53,709 nt of DNA, taken from NCBI GenBank assembly GCA_016879935.1, contig JAACJQ010000202.1:1-53709 (forward strand), given 5' to 3'. This document shows, piece by piece, positions 33,065 to 41,439 of this stretch (its first letter is position 1; each line of letters begins with the position of its first letter). A program made the translations under genes and the position numbers. The DNA is from Archangiaceae bacterium (GTDB lineage Bacteria > Myxococcota > Myxococcia > Myxococcales > Myxococcaceae). The notes beneath the pieces were generated by a model. That model was not told the DNA's origin. It did no database searches and saw only the letters and a list, made by a program, of their open reading frames with translations.

Positions 33065-35158
33065 CTATTTGAAGGGGTTGTCCTGCAGCTTCGGCGTCGC
33101 GGGCTTCGGCTTCGACTCGGTCTTCGCGGGCGGCGGCGGGGTCGGGTCGCCGAAGTCGGGAGCGGCCTTCAGCTCGCCGGGCTTCTTCTCGGGTCGGGGC
33201 TCGGGCTTCGGCTCGACCTTCTTCTTCACCGGCTCGAGCTTCATCGACACCGACGACACGTCGGCCGACACCATCACCTTGCGCTGGGCCGGCTCGTAGC
33301 CCGCCAGCGTAAGCGTCAGCTCGACGACCTCACCCGGCTTGCGCTTGAGCGTGTACGGCGTGTTGCCCAGCACGATGCCGTTCTCCTGCACCTCGGCCGC
33401 GGGCGGCACCGACTCGATGCGCAGGGCGACCTCGACGGGCGGCGCGGGCTCGACCGGCTTCGGCTTCACGGGCTCGACGGGCTCGGCCTGAATCACCTCG
33501 ATGGTCGGCTCGACGGTGGTGCTGCTGAAGATGACGCCGCCACCCACGAGCAGCACCAGCACCAGTACGCCGGCGATGACGAGCGGTGCCTTCGACGAGG
33601 GCGCGGGCGTGCCCGGCTGCGAGGCCTCGGCGTCGAAGGCCACCGGCTCCGAACGCGCGATGGTGGGCGCGGGCTCGACGGTGAGCGGAGCGCTCGTCGC
33701 GAGCGGCGCGCGGGTGGGCGTCGGCCCCCGGGCAGGCGTCGGCGCGGTGCGTTTGCCCGAGCGCGGCGGCGCGGGCGTCGGCGTGCGCTCCTTCGTCTGG
33801 CCGCCAGCGGGCGGCACCTGGAAGTCGTTCGTCTTGAGGGTGCGCGCGAGGCGGTCGAGCGTCTCGACGATGTCCTTCATCGCCTGCGGTCGGTCGGCCG
33901 GGTTCTTCTCGAGCATCGCGAAGACGAGGTCGTTGAGCTCGGCGGGAATCCACTCGGGGAGCGGCGGCGGCGGCTCCGTCACCTGCTTCACCATCACGAT
34001 GGGCGGCGTCTCGCCCGTGAAGGCCGGCTTGCCCGTGAGCAGCTCGTGAAGAATGAGGCCCAGCGAATAGATGTCGCTGCGGGTATCGACGGGAATCGCC
34101 TTGGCCTGCTCGGGCGACATGTACTGCGGCGTGCCGACGACGATGCCCGCCGCCGTCTGGCCGATGCTCTCGTTGTCGACCTGAACGCGCGCGACGCCGA
34201 AGTCGAGCACCTTCACGAGGTCGGGGTTGCCGGGGCGCTGCAGCACCATGACGTTGTCGGGCTTCAAGTCGCGGTGAACGATGTGCAGCTCGTGCGCAGC
34301 GGCCAGCGCGCGCGCCACCTGCAACGTCAACGCGACCGCGCGGCCCGGTGACTGCTGGCCCTGCCGGTGCACGAGGCTCGACAGCGTCATGCCGTCGAGG
34401 AACTCCATGACGAAGAAGAAGCGGCCCTCGGCGGTCTTTCCGAAGTCCGAGATGTCGACGATGTTCGGGTGGCCGATGCGGCTCGCGGCGACGGCTTCGA
34501 TTTTGAAGCGGTTGACGAACTCCTGGTCGGCGTTGAGGCCAGGCAACATCACCTTCATCGCCAGCGCCTTGCCCAGCTCGATGTGCTCGACCTTGTACAC
34601 CTCACCCATGCCGCCGGCCGCGATGCGCGCAGTGACGCGGTAGCGGCTGTCGATGGTGTCGCCGGTCGAGAAGCGGCCCGAGCCCGAAGGCGACGACGAG
34701 ATGGGCGGAGCGCCCGCCGGGGCGTCGAGCGGCCGGCCCAGCGGCGTGGCCTTGAGCGCGGCGAGCCCGCCTTCTGCGTTGGGAGGGTTCGACGCGAGGT
34801 GCATCGGCGTCGGGCGGCGCTGCGTGGTGTCGAGCTGGTCCGAGGCGGCCGTGTCCTCCATCGAGACGAGCATCATCTCGACGCGGCCCACCCGAATGAT
34901 GGAGCCCGAGACGAGCGAGGCCTTCGTCACCACCTTGCCGTCGACCCACAGCAGGCTCGCGCCGGTCAGGTCTTCGACCTCGAAGTCACCGCCTTCGTCG
35001 CGCCGCACCGCCGCGTGCACCTCACGCACCATGTTCGGTGGGAAGCGCACGGCGCAGCTTTCTCCGGAGCCGATGGAGAAGCGGTTCGACGGAATGGGCA
35101 CACGCTGGCCGCGCTCGGGGCCCTCCCGCACGACGAGCTCGTACGGAATGTCGCTCAC
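33065..35158 (-). CDS. FHA-Ser/Thr kinase-PEGA membrane protein
   Basis: 697 aa, GTG at 35158 overlapping the TPR-PEGA gene stop by 4 bp (GTGA). FHA-like domain ~24-98, degenerate (no canonical Arg/Ser-His set: VREVHAAV). Kinase domain ~173-435 with GAGG-like loop AAGGMGEVYKV, Lys202, HRDLKPDN (295-302), DFG (319-321), TPQYMSPEQ; all catalytic residues present. A Pro-rich juxtamembrane linker is followed by TM ~526-546 and a PEGA domain ~576-642, then a Lys/Pro-rich tail. A Hanks-type receptor kinase of the kind that drives myxobacterial development signalling. Its partner lies directly upstream. Confidence 0.93.
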   Translation of the reverse strand: MSDIPYELVVREGPERGQRVPIPSNRFSIGSGESCAVRFPPNMVREVHAAVRRDEGGDFEVEDLTGASLLWVDGKVVTKASLVSGSIIRVGRVEMMLVSMEDTAASDQLDTTQRRPTPMHLASNPPNAEGGLAALKATPLGRPLDAPAGAPPISSSPSGSGRFSTGDTIDSRYRVTARIAAGGMGEVYKVEHIELGKALAMKVMLPGLNADQEFVNRFKIEAVAASRIGHPNIVDISDFGKTAEGRFFFVMEFLDGMTLSSLVHRQGQQSPGRAVALTLQVARALAAAHELHIVHRDLKPDNVMVLQRPGNPDLVKVLDFGVARVQVDNESIGQTAAGIVVGTPQYMSPEQAKAIPVDTRSDIYSLGLILHELLTGKPAFTGETPPIVMVKQVTEPPPPLPEWIPAELNDLVFAMLEKNPADRPQAMKDIVETLDRLARTLKTNDFQVPPAGGQTKERTPTPAPPRSGKRTAPTPARGPTPTRAPLATSAPLTVEPAPTIARSEPVAFDAEASQPGTPAPSSKAPLVIAGVLVLVLLVGGGVIFSSTTVEPTIEVIQAEPVEPVKPKPVEPAPPVEVALRIESVPPAAEVQENGIVLGNTPYTLKRKPGEVVELTLTLAGYEPAQRKVMVSADVSSVSMKLEPVKKKVEPKPEPRPEKKPGELKAAPDFGDPTPPPPAKTESKPKPATPKLQDNPFK

Positions 35159-36096
35159 GCGCCCTCGAGGAAGAAGAGCACCACGGCGGCGGCAGCAGCG
35201 ACGCCGGCGGTGATGAACGAGACGGTGGCCGCCGTGCCCATCGAGTACGCGCCGGTGTACAGCGACGTCGCCTGGTCTCGGGTGCGGTTCGGGTCGAGCA
35301 TCTTCAGCTGAGCCTCGTTGCCCTTCATCACCGCGGTGAACGCGAGGCCGAGGCCAGCCGCGACGCCAGCGGTACCGGCCGCGACCCAGGTGAAGAGCCG
35401 CTTGCGCGGCGCCGGCGTCGGAGCGTCGACGATGAGGGCCGGCGGCGGCGGCGGCGTGAGGTCGGGCTCGCGCGCATCGGTCGGCTTCACGGGGTTGGAA
35501 GGCTTCACGGGGTCGGCGGGCTTCACCGGGTCGGCCGGCTTCACCGCGACGACCGCCGAGGCGCGCAGCGAGACGGTGAGCTCCATCGAGCGCGTGGCCG
35601 ACATGGCGAACGCCCGCTCGTACGAGTCGAACCCCGTCGCCGAGATGGTCACCTTGTGCGACCCCGGCGTGATGGTGGCTGACGCAGGCGAGGTGCCGAT
35701 GTCTTTGCCATCGACCGACACCCGCGCGGTGGCGGGCTCGACGTAGACGAGCAGGTGCTGCGTGCCCTGCTTCTGCAGCCGCTGCTCGATGGAGTCGATC
35801 GCGGCGGCCACCTCGTCGGCGTCGGTCGCCTGCGGAGACTGGCGCAGGTACTCCTTGTACGACGTCATCGCGTGCACGAGGTCGCCGAGCTGGTCCTGGC
35901 AGCGGGCGATGTTGAAGACGGTGGCGGGGTGGGGCTTGGCGGCGAACGACTCCTCGAACTTCGCGAGCGCGTCTTTGTACTTGCCGGCGGAGTACAGGCC
36001 CTGGCCCTTCATGAAGGCATCACGCGCCACGGCCGTGGGGTCGGCGAACGAGACCGCCGCAAGGAGGAGCGCACACAGGGTGAACCAACGAGCCAT
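35155..36096 (-). CDS. TPR-PEGA membrane protein
   Basis: 313 aa, signal peptide 1-18 (MARWFTLCALLLAAVSFA). Tetratricopeptide repeats at ~25-90 (DAFMKGQGLYSAGKYKDALAKFEES, ATVFNIARCQDQLGD), a PEGA domain ~114-178, a repeated KPADPVKP linker, and two TM helices near 236-256 and 285-310. The PEGA domain matches that of the kinase encoded 4 bp downstream, so the two probably sense or bind related cell-wall or surface ligands, with this protein possibly the sensor input. Divergent from the second kinase gene. Confidence 0.88.
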   Translation of the reverse strand: MARWFTLCALLLAAVSFADPTAVARDAFMKGQGLYSAGKYKDALAKFEESFAAKPHPATVFNIARCQDQLGDLVHAMTSYKEYLRQSPQATDADEVAAAIDSIEQRLQKQGTQHLLVYVEPATARVSVDGKDIGTSPASATITPGSHKVTISATGFDSYERAFAMSATRSMELTVSLRASAVVAVKPADPVKPADPVKPSNPVKPTDAREPDLTPPPPPALIVDAPTPAPRKRLFTWVAAGTAGVAAGLGLAFTAVMKGNEAQLKMLDPNRTRDQATSLYTGAYSMGTAATVSFITAGVAAAAAVVLFFLEGA

Positions 36097-36254
36097 CGGA
36101 GAGCCCCCAAAACACGACGTGAAGCGGCGCGCCAGTGTAGCCCATCAGGACGGGCCGGGGCCTGCTTCATACGGCGCGCGCTGCGCATGATCAGCTTCAC
36201 CACCTCGGCACTGTCGGGCGCGAAAGCTCGGTGATTGACTCCCCACCGGGGACA

Positions 36255-37508
<1,254 letters not shown>

Positions 37509-37592: not shown

Positions 37593-38228
37593 ATGTCAGG
37601 CCCAGCACCAGCAGCGAATGCCCCACCGCCGATGTTCGGAGAGCCGACGCCGCTCGGCCTGCTCGGCTTGTCCATCGGGTGCGCGGCGCTGGTGCCCATC
37701 GCGTTCGGGTGGTTGCCGAGCGAGCCGGCGAAGATCGTCACGATGATGAAGACGGCGTCGTGGTTCTGTCTGCTGTTCGGCGCGGGCTGTCAGTTCCTCG
37801 CGGGGCTCATGTCGCTGGCGAACAAGAACACGCTGGGCGGCACGCTGCTGACGACGTTCTCGTTCAACTGGGTCTTCAACTGGTACGTGCTCGACGAAGC
37901 GAGCCAGGGCCGCGGCGTCGACTCGTCGGTGATGCTCAGCGTCGACGTGACGTTCATCATCATCTTCGTGGTGCTGACGTACGCGTTCGGGTTCTTCTCG
38001 AAGCTGCTCTTCTTCTTCCTCGTCGACATCGACGTGCTGTACCTCGCGCGCATCGGCAAACACTTCGCGGTGCCGGGCACGGGCCCGCTGGTGGGCGTGG
38101 CGACCATCGTGTTGATGGTCATCGCGCTGTACATCTCGTTCGCGTTGCTGGTGAACCCGGCGGCCGGGCGAGCGGTGTTCCCTGCGTCGGGGCCGATGTT
38201 CAAGCCGACACCTCCGCCGGCGGTCTGA
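37593..38228 (+). CDS. YaaH/GPR1-family acetate transporter
   Basis: 211 aa. The N-terminal motif EPTPLGLLGLSIG matches the NPAPLGL(M)G signature of the YaaH/SatP/GPR1/FUN34 family, and the fold is six hydrophobic helices with an internal FLAGLMSLANKNTLGGTLLTTF segment matching the family's second conserved block. Family members import acetate/succinate with protons. This would feed the isocitrate lyase of the glyoxylate shunt, encoded 17 kb away, but they are not adjacent and the link is inference. The gene is isolated between the kinase and the TPR lipoprotein. Confidence 0.85.
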   Translation: MSGPAPAANAPPPMFGEPTPLGLLGLSIGCAALVPIAFGWLPSEPAKIVTMMKTASWFCLLFGAGCQFLAGLMSLANKNTLGGTLLTTFSFNWVFNWYVLDEASQGRGVDSSVMLSVDVTFIIIFVVLTYAFGFFSKLLFFFLVDIDVLYLARIGKHFAVPGTGPLVGVATIVLMVIALYISFALLVNPAAGRAVFPASGPMFKPTPPPAV

Positions 38229-38255: not shown

Positions 38256-39749
38256 ATGCTCACGCATTCACGCTGGTGCCTGCTGCTCCTCCTGGGGGCC
38301 TGTGCTCACCGAAGCGGGCACGAGGTGGCGACGGTGTTCGCGGACGAAGCGAGAGAAATCTCGAGGCTCGAGCACAGTGATTCACCAGAGCAGCAACTGC
38401 AGATGGTGGTGGCCCTGCAGCGCGCCCGCTTGTTCACGCTGGCCTTCATCTACGGTTCGGGGGTCGCGAAGTCGTCGGGCCCGCAACGCCTGGCGGCACT
38501 GGAGACGCTCGTCCGACTTCAGGAGCAGCGCCAGGACGACTTTCTCATTCCCTCGATGCTCGAGCGTTTGTCGCGTGAGCAGGGGCTGAGCGGGCTCTCG
38601 GCATTCGCGGTCGAGCGCGTCACGTGGTTCAACGCGCGCATCGCGTATCATCGCGGTCTGCTGTCGCAGGTGGTCGCGCTCTGCGAGCAGATTCCTCCGA
38701 CCAGCATCGACTTCGCGAGAGCGCAGTACCTGATGGGTCTCGCGCTCGCCGACGAACGCCTCGAAGGCGGGGCCGGGAGGGAGCGGGCGCTCGGCGTGTT
38801 CGGTCGACTGGCCGAGGGCGTCGACCAGAACCAGACTGGAGCCGAAGTCGTTCATGCGCAGAGCCTGTTGGCGCTGGGCCGACTGGCGTACGCGAGGCGA
38901 GAGTGGGCCGCGGCGACCGCCTGGTACGAGCGGGCGGCGAAGCTGCCTTCAGTGCGGACGACCGCGCTGTTCGAGCAGAGCCTCGCGCTCCTTCGCGCAG
39001 GTGACTTCGTTCGGTCGGTCGCGCTGCTCCGCAGCGACGAGGTGCGCGAGTCGGGAATCGCCGAGGTCGCGCTCACCGAGGCGATGGCGTTGCACTTCTC
39101 GCGAGATGCGACCTCGGCCGAGGCAGCCCTCACCCGGGCGGCAGGCACCGCCCCCAACGTCGACTGGTCGAACGCAGCCCCCGGCCGCGCGCTCGAGGTC
39201 TGCAAGACGGGCCAGGGCGGCTCACCGCTGGAGTTGAAGCTGGCTCGCGAGAATCCCCGGCTGACGCGATTGCTGGCGAGCCTCGAGGCCGCAGAGAGCG
39301 AGCGCCGCGTCGTCTCACAGGTCGAGTCATGGCAACACGACTCGACGGCTTCCGCCTTCGATGGCTATCTCGGACAGAACCTCGAGACGCTTCGCCAGGT
39401 CGCCGACAGGAGGTGCCTCAACGAGTTCAGGAATCAGCAGGCTGCGGTCGACACCAGCAGAGGCCTGGCGGAGTTGGTGGGCATCGAGGTGGCCCTGGCG
39501 CGACGTGACCTCGACACTGCCATCGCGCGAACCGAGTCCGTGCTGTCACGCCTGCCGTCGAAGAGCGTGTCGACCTCCGAGATGCTGTTTCGGTTGATGG
39601 CGTTGAAGCAGGCGAGGTCCGAGGTTCTGAAGGGCGCGGAGGCGCAGGAGGCTCATGCTCAGGTCGTCGCGTTGCTCGAGCGCATCGTCGATGGAGACCC
39701 GGCCTTCGAGCGGCTCGATGAGGCCAGGCGACTGCTGAACGAACCGTGA
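38256..39749 (+). CDS. TPR-repeat lipoprotein
   Basis: 497 aa. Lipoprotein signal with lipobox LLGAC. Tetratricopeptide-like helical pairs run through the chain (ISRLEHSDSPEQQLQMVVALQRARLFTLA; AQYLMGLALADERLEGGAGRERALGVF; ALGRLAYARREWAAATAWYERAAKL; VALARRDLDTAIARTESVLSRL). It is expected to be an outer-membrane-anchored periplasmic scaffold for protein-protein interaction. It ends directly before the Ser/Ala repeat protein. Confidence 0.85.
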   Translation: MLTHSRWCLLLLLGACAHRSGHEVATVFADEAREISRLEHSDSPEQQLQMVVALQRARLFTLAFIYGSGVAKSSGPQRLAALETLVRLQEQRQDDFLIPSMLERLSREQGLSGLSAFAVERVTWFNARIAYHRGLLSQVVALCEQIPPTSIDFARAQYLMGLALADERLEGGAGRERALGVFGRLAEGVDQNQTGAEVVHAQSLLALGRLAYARREWAAATAWYERAAKLPSVRTTALFEQSLALLRAGDFVRSVALLRSDEVRESGIAEVALTEAMALHFSRDATSAEAALTRAAGTAPNVDWSNAAPGRALEVCKTGQGGSPLELKLARENPRLTRLLASLEAAESERRVVSQVESWQHDSTASAFDGYLGQNLETLRQVADRRCLNEFRNQQAAVDTSRGLAELVGIEVALARRDLDTAIARTESVLSRLPSKSVSTSEMLFRLMALKQARSEVLKGAEAQEAHAQVVALLERIVDGDPAFERLDEARRLLNEP

Positions 39750-39810
39750 TGTGGTGGCGCTCGGCACCTGGCGCTTCGACAGCAGCGGCGAGTTCGGCGA
39801 CACTGGCGGC

Positions 39811-41439
39811 GTGGATCCACTGCGTCGGTTCGTTCGCCAGCTCGCCCGCCTCGCGCGTGGCGCTGACACGAACAAGCCCTCGCCAGTCGAGCCGACGACA
39901 CCGAAGCCGCAGACGGCTCCAGTCGACACCTTCGAGCCCGCGCCTGCGAAAGCGGCTCTGCAGCCCGCCACTGGTCCACGCAGTCTCGTCGCCGCGTATC
40001 GCGCAGACACCTTCTCGGGCTTCGTCGATGGCTTCGAGGGAGCCGTCAGAGCTCCGGTCAACCTGAGCGGCGGCCTCGAGCCCATCACGCCCGACGCGTT
40101 CGAGGTGACAAAGCCGGCTCCCATCGCGGTGAGCACGGGCTTCGTGGCGTCGCTCGACGACTTGTTTCCTGGAGAACCGTCGACCGATGCCACGCCTCCA
40201 GCGAGTGACCCGACGTCGTTCAACGCCTCACTCGCAGATCTCGGGCTGAGCGAGCCAGAGGCGTCGACCGGAGCGCTCGACGCTGCTGCGACGTTCGCGG
40301 AGGCGATGGAGCGCTCGACACCCGGTGAGGCGACGACCACCGGCGACGACGCCGCGGCGACCGCTTCGTCGCAGCTCTCGTCGAGTTCAGAGGCCTCGGC
40401 GGTCGCGGAGCCTGCGCTCATCGCGTCGTCGGCCCGGCCGACAGCGGACCCGGTGACCTCGTCGAGTTCGGCGGCGTCGGTGGTCGCGGAACCTGCGCTC
40501 ATCGCGTCCTCGTCGGACCTGTCGACGGCGGCTCCGGTGGCCTCTCTTCAGCTCTCGTCGAGCTCGGCCTCGGTGGTCGCGGAACCTGCGCTCATCGCAT
40601 CGGCGGCTCCGTTGGCCTCGTCGCAGTCGTCGAACTCGGCCTCGGTGGCCGCAGAGCCTGCGCTCATCGCGTCGTCGGCCCTGCCCACGGCGGATACGGT
40701 TACCTCGCCGCAGCCCTCGTCGAGTTCTGCGGCGTCGGTGGTTGCGAAGCCTGCGCTCATCGCGTCGTCGGACCTGCCGACAGCGGATCCGGTGGCCTCG
40801 TCGAGTTCTGCGGCGTCGGTGGTCGCGGAACCTGCGCTCATCGCGTCGTCGGACCTGCCGCCGGCGGCTCCGGTGGCCTCGTCGCAGCTCTCGTCGAACT
40901 TGGCCTCGGCGGTCGCGGCACCTGCGCTCACCGTGTCGTCGGACCTGCCGGCGGGCTCGCCACAGCTGTCGTGGAGTTCGGCGGCGTCGGTGGTCGCGGA
41001 ACCTGCGCTCATCGCGTCGTCGGACCTGCCGACAACGGCTCCGGTGGCCTCGCAACAGCTCTCGTTGAGTTCAAAGGCGTCGGTGGTCGCGCAGCCTGCG
41101 CTCATCGCGTCGTCGGACCTGCCGGCGGTCTCGCCACAGCTCTCGTCGAGTTCGGCGGCGTCGATGGGCGCCGAGCCTGCCGGCTCACCAGCATTCCCGT
41201 CGTCGATTCCGACAGCTGTGCCTGCGTCTGCGGATCGCTCGTCGGAGGCCCTGGTCGCAGAGGCCGTCGCGTCGCCTTCGCCGTCGCCTCATCTTTCGCC
41301 TTCCGCAGGTTCGGCGGAACCCTCGTCGGTCGATCGTGCGGTGTCCTCGAACCCGCTCGCGCAGCCCGTCGACGCATCAGCGGTCGACCTCGAGGAAGAC
41401 CTCGTCGCCCTCGCCGAGGCGCTCGTCGGCAGGCCGTAG
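39811..41439 (+). CDS. Ser/Ala-rich repeat protein, unknown family
   Basis: 542 aa from the GTG at 39811, where a helical N-terminus (MDPLRRFVRQLARLARGAD) begins; a GTG at 39751 would add 20 non-descript residues. No signal peptide. Residues ~20-190 are Pro/Thr/Ala-rich with acidic patches. Nine imperfect repeats and a degenerate tenth follow (40393-41238), each with a core ASVVAEPALIASSDLP and a Ser-rich spacer. The C-terminus is an acidic amphipathic helix (DLEEDLVALAEALVG). The composition is low-complexity but codon choice is normal for the window, and the frame is free of stops through all repeats. I recognise no family. Confidence 0.75.
   Translation: MDPLRRFVRQLARLARGADTNKPSPVEPTTPKPQTAPVDTFEPAPAKAALQPATGPRSLVAAYRADTFSGFVDGFEGAVRAPVNLSGGLEPITPDAFEVTKPAPIAVSTGFVASLDDLFPGEPSTDATPPASDPTSFNASLADLGLSEPEASTGALDAAATFAEAMERSTPGEATTTGDDAAATASSQLSSSSEASAVAEPALIASSARPTADPVTSSSSAASVVAEPALIASSSDLSTAAPVASLQLSSSSASVVAEPALIASAAPLASSQSSNSASVAAEPALIASSALPTADTVTSPQPSSSSAASVVAKPALIASSDLPTADPVASSSSAASVVAEPALIASSDLPPAAPVASSQLSSNLASAVAAPALTVSSDLPAGSPQLSWSSAASVVAEPALIASSDLPTTAPVASQQLSLSSKASVVAQPALIASSDLPAVSPQLSSSSAASMGAEPAGSPAFPSSIPTAVPASADRSSEALVAEAVASPSPSPHLSPSAGSAEPSSVDRAVSSNPLAQPVDASAVDLEEDLVALAEALVGRP
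40393..41238 (+). repeat. Ten imperfect in-frame protein repeats
   Basis: Repeat units start at 40393, 40474, 40567, 40639, 40732, 40813, 40903, 40984, 41077 and 41158. Spacings are 81, 93, 72, 93, 81, 90, 81, 93 and 81 bp, all multiples of three (24-31 residues). The core codes for A-S-V-V-A-E-P-A-L-I-A-S-S and is the best conserved part; the Ser/Pro/Gln-rich spacers vary in length. Confidence 0.9.

Follow-up and report, generated by a model that had tools for sequence, protein, structure and literature searches.

The open reading frame at positions 39811-41439 (forward strand) of the 53,709-nt stretch analysed here, referred to as the window and corresponding to contig C143 of a 9.5-Mb genome, is almost certainly a real gene. 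It starts with GTG and encodes a 542-residue protein that orthologues and dN/dS assign to the long form of a largely disordered protein family, named DxFE after one of its motifs. The ends of this protein are conserved and the repeat-bearing linker between them is not, a layout that points to a tether and not to a repeat-based structure.

An in-frame GTG is also present at 39751, upstream of the start at 39811. We favour the latter because the block GAGTTCGGCGACACT (39790-39804, forward strand), 6 nt 5' of the codon, is identical in the four orthologues, and conservation stops above it. Within the genus, orthologues were found in three further genomes, G004 (E=3e-31), G006 (E=3e-28) and G002 (E=9e-26), and the frame, whose loss in relatives would have refuted the first-pass annotation by its own account, is kept in all four same-genus genomes. 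A block of 58 codons aligns without gaps among them, with dN/dS values of 0.21-0.46 that indicate purifying selection. Neither Pfam (E<=0.01) nor NCBIfam (E<=0.1) contains a family matching the window protein. The profile built from alignment A1 recovers the window gene with E=1.9e-38, the window sequence being itself a row of that alignment, and the profile-independent pairwise match between the window and G004 has E=3.3e-31. Members were detected with this profile in 21 of 96 Myxococcaceae genomes; an initial search of the order beyond this family, covering 24 genomes, returned one marginal match only. From these comparisons we hold with high confidence that this is a Myxococcaceae-specific family, as defined here, previously unlisted in Pfam and NCBIfam.

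Members of the family present, in this order, an N-terminal amphipathic helix, DxFE, DGFE..R.PVxLSGG and FxASLDDL, and the window protein has all four elements. Its basic N-terminal helix (residues 2-15, DPLRRFVRQLARLA; 39814-39855, forward strand as for all features that follow) reaches a hydrophobic moment of 0.95 and is conserved as LRRLV/LRSLAR. Next comes the DTFE motif (residues 39-42; 39925-39936), of which D39, F41 and E42 are invariant in alignment A4. The conserved core block, supported by alignments A1 and A4 and by purifying selection (residues 61-118; 39991-40164), contains DGFEGAVRAPVNLSGG (residues 73-88) and FVASLDDL (residues 111-118). A second FxASLxDL copy, FNASLADL, can be read from the translation at residues 137-144 (40219-40242), other family members having one to three copies. 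At the opposite end, an acidic helix (residues 527-539; 41389-41427) lies within EDLVALAEAL, an instance of the motif (P/E)EDL(V/I)ALAE(A/V)L found in all four orthologues, beyond which the reading frame of G004 continues. Conservation across the orthologues covers the N-terminal helix, DTFE, DSF.GFVDGFE..R.PVDLSGG, FxASLDDL and, at the C-terminus, PEDLxALAEALL.

AlphaFold2 gave a confident prediction only for residues 2-15 (pLDDT about 88) and 527-539 (about 80), both helical, basic and acidic respectively, in agreement with the oppositely charged terminal helices noted earlier. Across the repeats pLDDT is about 35-45 with no secondary structure, and 440 of the 542 residues score below 50. 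Six sequences were used as input and this shallow alignment limits the prediction, although the composition agrees with it; the protein is thereby predicted to be intrinsically disordered apart from its two end helices. The absence of a signal peptide also held, the most hydrophobic 11-residue window in the first 45 residues scoring just 0.07 on the Kyte-Doolittle scale.

Besides the long form, the family comprises short forms of about 145-150 residues that end at FxASLDDL and have no tail, one of them encoded on contig C259 of the window's own genome. The short-form locus consists of a response regulator, a histidine kinase, a 240-residue signal-peptide protein, a signal-less protein of about 500 residues and the short gene, followed in many loci by DUF2752 and PlsY; L021-L027, L106 and L110 are conserved loci of the short protein with the response regulator-kinase arrangement. 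The two-component system was discarded as a partner of the short form, as it is near (2.5-9 kb) in several loci but not adjacent. In G067 (L045/L108) a tailed form of 308 residues occupies the slot that holds a short form in G066 (L106), which shows the long form to be a short form with a tail added. Tail repeats differ from member to member, for instance VEQPVS in G066 and EGGMSTESLM in G003. Genomes resembling Archangium and Cystobacter encode a related architecture, MSIRRIG..DGYETAQRELVDLKGG..D.F.ASLDDI, with the last element occurring twice.

The pattern D.F[ED]....PV.L.GG is also found in proteins that are unrelated outside the motif. One such protein in the window's genome combines it with PG_binding_1 and a transpeptidase-like C-terminus; elsewhere it accompanies Peptidase_C39_2, LysM with GH19, LysM with a CHAP-like domain, Peptidase_S8, or RTX repeats with Peptidase_M91, all of them domain contents of extracellular type. 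A hydrophobic N-terminal segment is absent from all the motif-bearing proteins examined. The first DNA pattern used for the motif admitted GAC alone and misses the GAT codon of the window gene. That the motif is shared outside the family to an extent beyond chance is likely; it is short, however, and its role may be to bind something that has no connection with export. Among individual loci, L207:2-1495 (reverse strand) encodes a signal-less protein with a DGFE N-terminus, RTX calcium-binding repeats and a Peptidase_M91 'effector' domain, with L209, L210, L213 and L214 as relatives (Pfam was run on L207 alone), and L170:8296-8787 (reverse strand) encodes a glycine-rich protein of 163 residues with DKFE..PVNLNGG at its C-terminal end and a likeness to harpins seen by eye only.

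A promoter-like element, TCGACA-N17-GACACT (39776-39804), ends 6 nt before the start codon of the window gene. Short-form genes have CAAC-N16..18-CGACAAT located 5-7 nt before the ATG, the short paralogue in the same genome bearing CAAC-N17-CGACAAT. GACANT exactly 6 nt upstream of a start occurs in just 7 of the 474 genes called in the collected loci, all of them family members. Within the genus, the CAAC/CGACAAT pattern gave 21 matches against none in the reversed control, including a cysteine-motif family of about 500 residues present in all seven genomes. The related box CGCAAC-N14..17-GCGACAAT was matched 101 times in the 96 Myxococcaceae genomes, against 17 times in the reversed control, whereas outside that family 49 genomes of the order gave 5 matches and their control 2; the window gene lacks the exact box and has only the variant GCGACACT, without CGCAAC.

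We tallied the 27 genes downstream of the box with a coding score above 40. The motif, written as [DST][SGTAR]F[EDQ], falls within the first 130 residues in 17 of these 27 genes, compared with 19 of 451 in the background, counts that indicate a trend and not a calibrated probability because the expression was relaxed after examples had been seen and several loci are homologous; for the latter reason the associated p-value of 6e-15 overstates independence. A hydrophobic N-terminus is predicted for only one of the 27, as opposed to 187 of 474 background genes. Domains encoded behind the box include Peptidase_S8, LysM, CHAP and RTX repeats with Peptidase_M91. The box is probably a promoter, putatively one recognised by a sigma factor. 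Loci L195-L224 and L174-L194 have it ahead of genes for proteins that lack a signal peptide, have N-termini rich in P, T and A and carry a motif resembling DxFE. L177, L202, L205 and their relatives form a signal-less family of about 440-500 residues with a Cys..His..Asp pattern like that of cysteine proteases; the members tested (L177 and L205) have no Pfam match, and some g16 members carry lineage-specific DDG(V/I)GRK tandem repeats in a disordered N-terminus. Searches of the open-access literature found no description of either the DxFE motif or the CGCAAC-GCGACAAT box.

Our preferred reading, which we advance tentatively and rate a little short of evenly balanced, is that the product of the window gene is disordered, acts as a tether or accessory protein and is probably exported together with other DxFE proteins. 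The N-terminal helix, DxFE, DGFE..PVxLSGG and FxASLDDL would act as recognition elements. Through them the protein would be brought to the inner membrane, or else would share a partner or an export route with other proteins that have the DxFE motif. The long tail would behave as an acidic entropic linker that lengthens and shortens by tandem duplication, and the C-terminal acidic helix would hold a second partner at the far end of this flexible spacer. We infer membrane contact and tethering from these features, and export of the window protein itself may be judged about equally likely to be right or wrong. No secretion genes were found beside the loci inspected. A broader proposal, which we regard as rather doubtful, is that DxFE..PVxLxGG and CGCAAC-N14..17-GCGACAAT mark a single Myxococcaceae-wide regulon of exported proteins without signal peptides, comprising wall hydrolases, proteases and effector-type enzymes, in which the motif would be the targeting signal for an undescribed route and the window family would supply the non-enzymatic disordered members.

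The same elements could instead serve in the cytoplasm, with the N-terminal helix lying on the inner membrane, DxFE and FxASLDDL binding cytosolic partners and the tail acting as a spacer, and we consider such a scaffold or adaptor a distinct possibility, though short of probable. The lack of a signal peptide, the strongly basic and amphipathic character of the N-terminal helix, the repetition of FxASLxDL in several members and the cytosolic appearance of the Archangium- and Cystobacter-like members, with their coiled-coil-like middles, all agree with it. It accounts poorly for a motif common to enzymes that act on substrates beyond the cytoplasm and to an RTX calcium-binding protein, and for a box that precedes genes almost never endowed with a hydrophobic N-terminus and yet, in many cases, with wall- or protein-degrading domains.

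The layout of the short-form locus raises another alternative, in which the short protein would be a small co-exported or chaperone-like partner of its neighbour of about 500 residues and the long form a duplicated, re-purposed copy. The short gene does adjoin this conserved signal-less protein, which has a DGF motif, and a beta-barrel-like signal-peptide protein lies beside it as well; nevertheless, no conserved neighbour is found around the four long forms, in the window or in the orthologous loci, and we consider this reading improbable. Since no neighbour is shared, the lipoprotein gene upstream in the window (38256-39749) appears to be incidental. The first-pass annotation had described that gene as encoding a TPR lipoprotein: a lipobox-like N-terminus is indeed present, but its TPR matches remain below the Pfam cut-offs (best E=0.044) and the linkage is not conserved. 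An operon with it was rejected on the grounds of the three orthologous loci and of the promoter-like element found close to the start instead. Further upstream, 37593-38228 encodes a membrane protein whose weak likeness to acetate uptake transporters does not reach the cut-off (AceTr_1, E=1.1e-6), and in 33065-37508 two Hanks-type kinases, one of them with FHA and PEGA, flank a TPR/PEGA protein.

The repeats had been taken by the first-pass annotation as the working part of the protein, possibly forming an intracellular filament or a scaffold with many identical binding sites. The long Ser/Ala-rich array it described is present: Tandem Repeats Finder (TRF) and a comparison of the cores delimit 72-93-bp units at 40385-41180, with array scores up to 503, far above chance. 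Nine cores match VVAEPALIAS(S), spaced by 27, 31, 24, 31, 27, 30, 27 and 31 residues, and one further copy has decayed to MGAEPAGS, so the earlier count of ten repeats at 24-31-residue spacing is fair. The regularity of the unit and its conserved hydrophobic core are what speaks for a function of the repeats. Comparison of the orthologues, however, leads us to reject them as the functional core, as the ends stay conserved while the repeats are replaced. Where the window repeats lie, G002 has four copies of another, unrelated repeat ('ATDEVASASARLAPTADGTTTPDASEAVPFAVVP'); G006 has about five copies of an equally unrelated 32-residue repeat ('HEAAPATTEGDARAAPTAGPDAAAVNLGPLAP'), and in the corresponding stretch of G004 no repeat is evident. 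The unconserved stretch measures 277-406 residues across the orthologues, and all four long forms maintain a net charge of -27 to -30 without conservation of sequence. At the DNA level the 60-nt cores have a mean identity of 0.78, and their differences from the consensus are spread almost equally over the three codon positions (21, 24 and 29), the pattern that tandem duplication under weak constraint should leave. With no fold predicted by AlphaFold2 across the repeats either, a filament or a multivalent scaffold built from them is very improbable, and the array is very likely a lineage-specific, fast-changing linker.

That the frame is a spurious product of a G+C-rich repeat, as its omission by a hexamer gene caller and a long overlapping antisense open reading frame might suggest, is refuted by the frame-conserving orthologues, by dN/dS values under 0.5 and by the presence of conserved ends on either side of linkers that are not conserved, and is exceedingly improbable.

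By description, the DxFE proteins resemble those with WHIX, RIX or MIX in having a common N-terminal motif ahead of unrelated effector-type domains; RIX and MIX are further N-terminal export-marker motifs. WHIX is the N-terminal export-marker motif of type VI secretion system (T6SS) effectors (PMC12135965). Assignment to the T6SS effector class was abandoned because no T6SS genes were recognised by eye in ten gene-called neighbourhoods of motif genes. With RTX proteins and other type I secreted proteins the likeness is limited to the L207 group, which has RTX repeats and Peptidase_M91; such repeats are absent from the window protein.

A comparison within the myxobacteria is offered by PopC of Myxococcus xanthus, whose N-terminal part has neither signal peptide nor recognisable domain (Nat Commun 2019, PMC6434023), and which accumulates in the periplasm and is secreted full-length, its crossing of the inner membrane being an open question (PMC6434023). 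The window protein is likewise, by description, a myxobacterial protein without a signal peptide; it differs in lacking a protease domain and, having no Peptidase_S8 match in Pfam, is not a PopC-like secreted protease. Related subtilases of Myxococcus- and Corallococcus-like genomes carry a DGFE/DGFD motif in a disordered N-terminus, several with the GCGACAAT box upstream; we do not equate any of those found with PopC, as their sizes do not match its stated 50.8 kDa. In predatory myxobacteria, secretion without a signal peptide is known for one protein at least, and its passage through the inner membrane is described as open (PopC, PMC6434023); a short N-terminal motif and a promoter box that jointly single out signal-less proteins with extracellular-type domains would give a testable handle on such a route.
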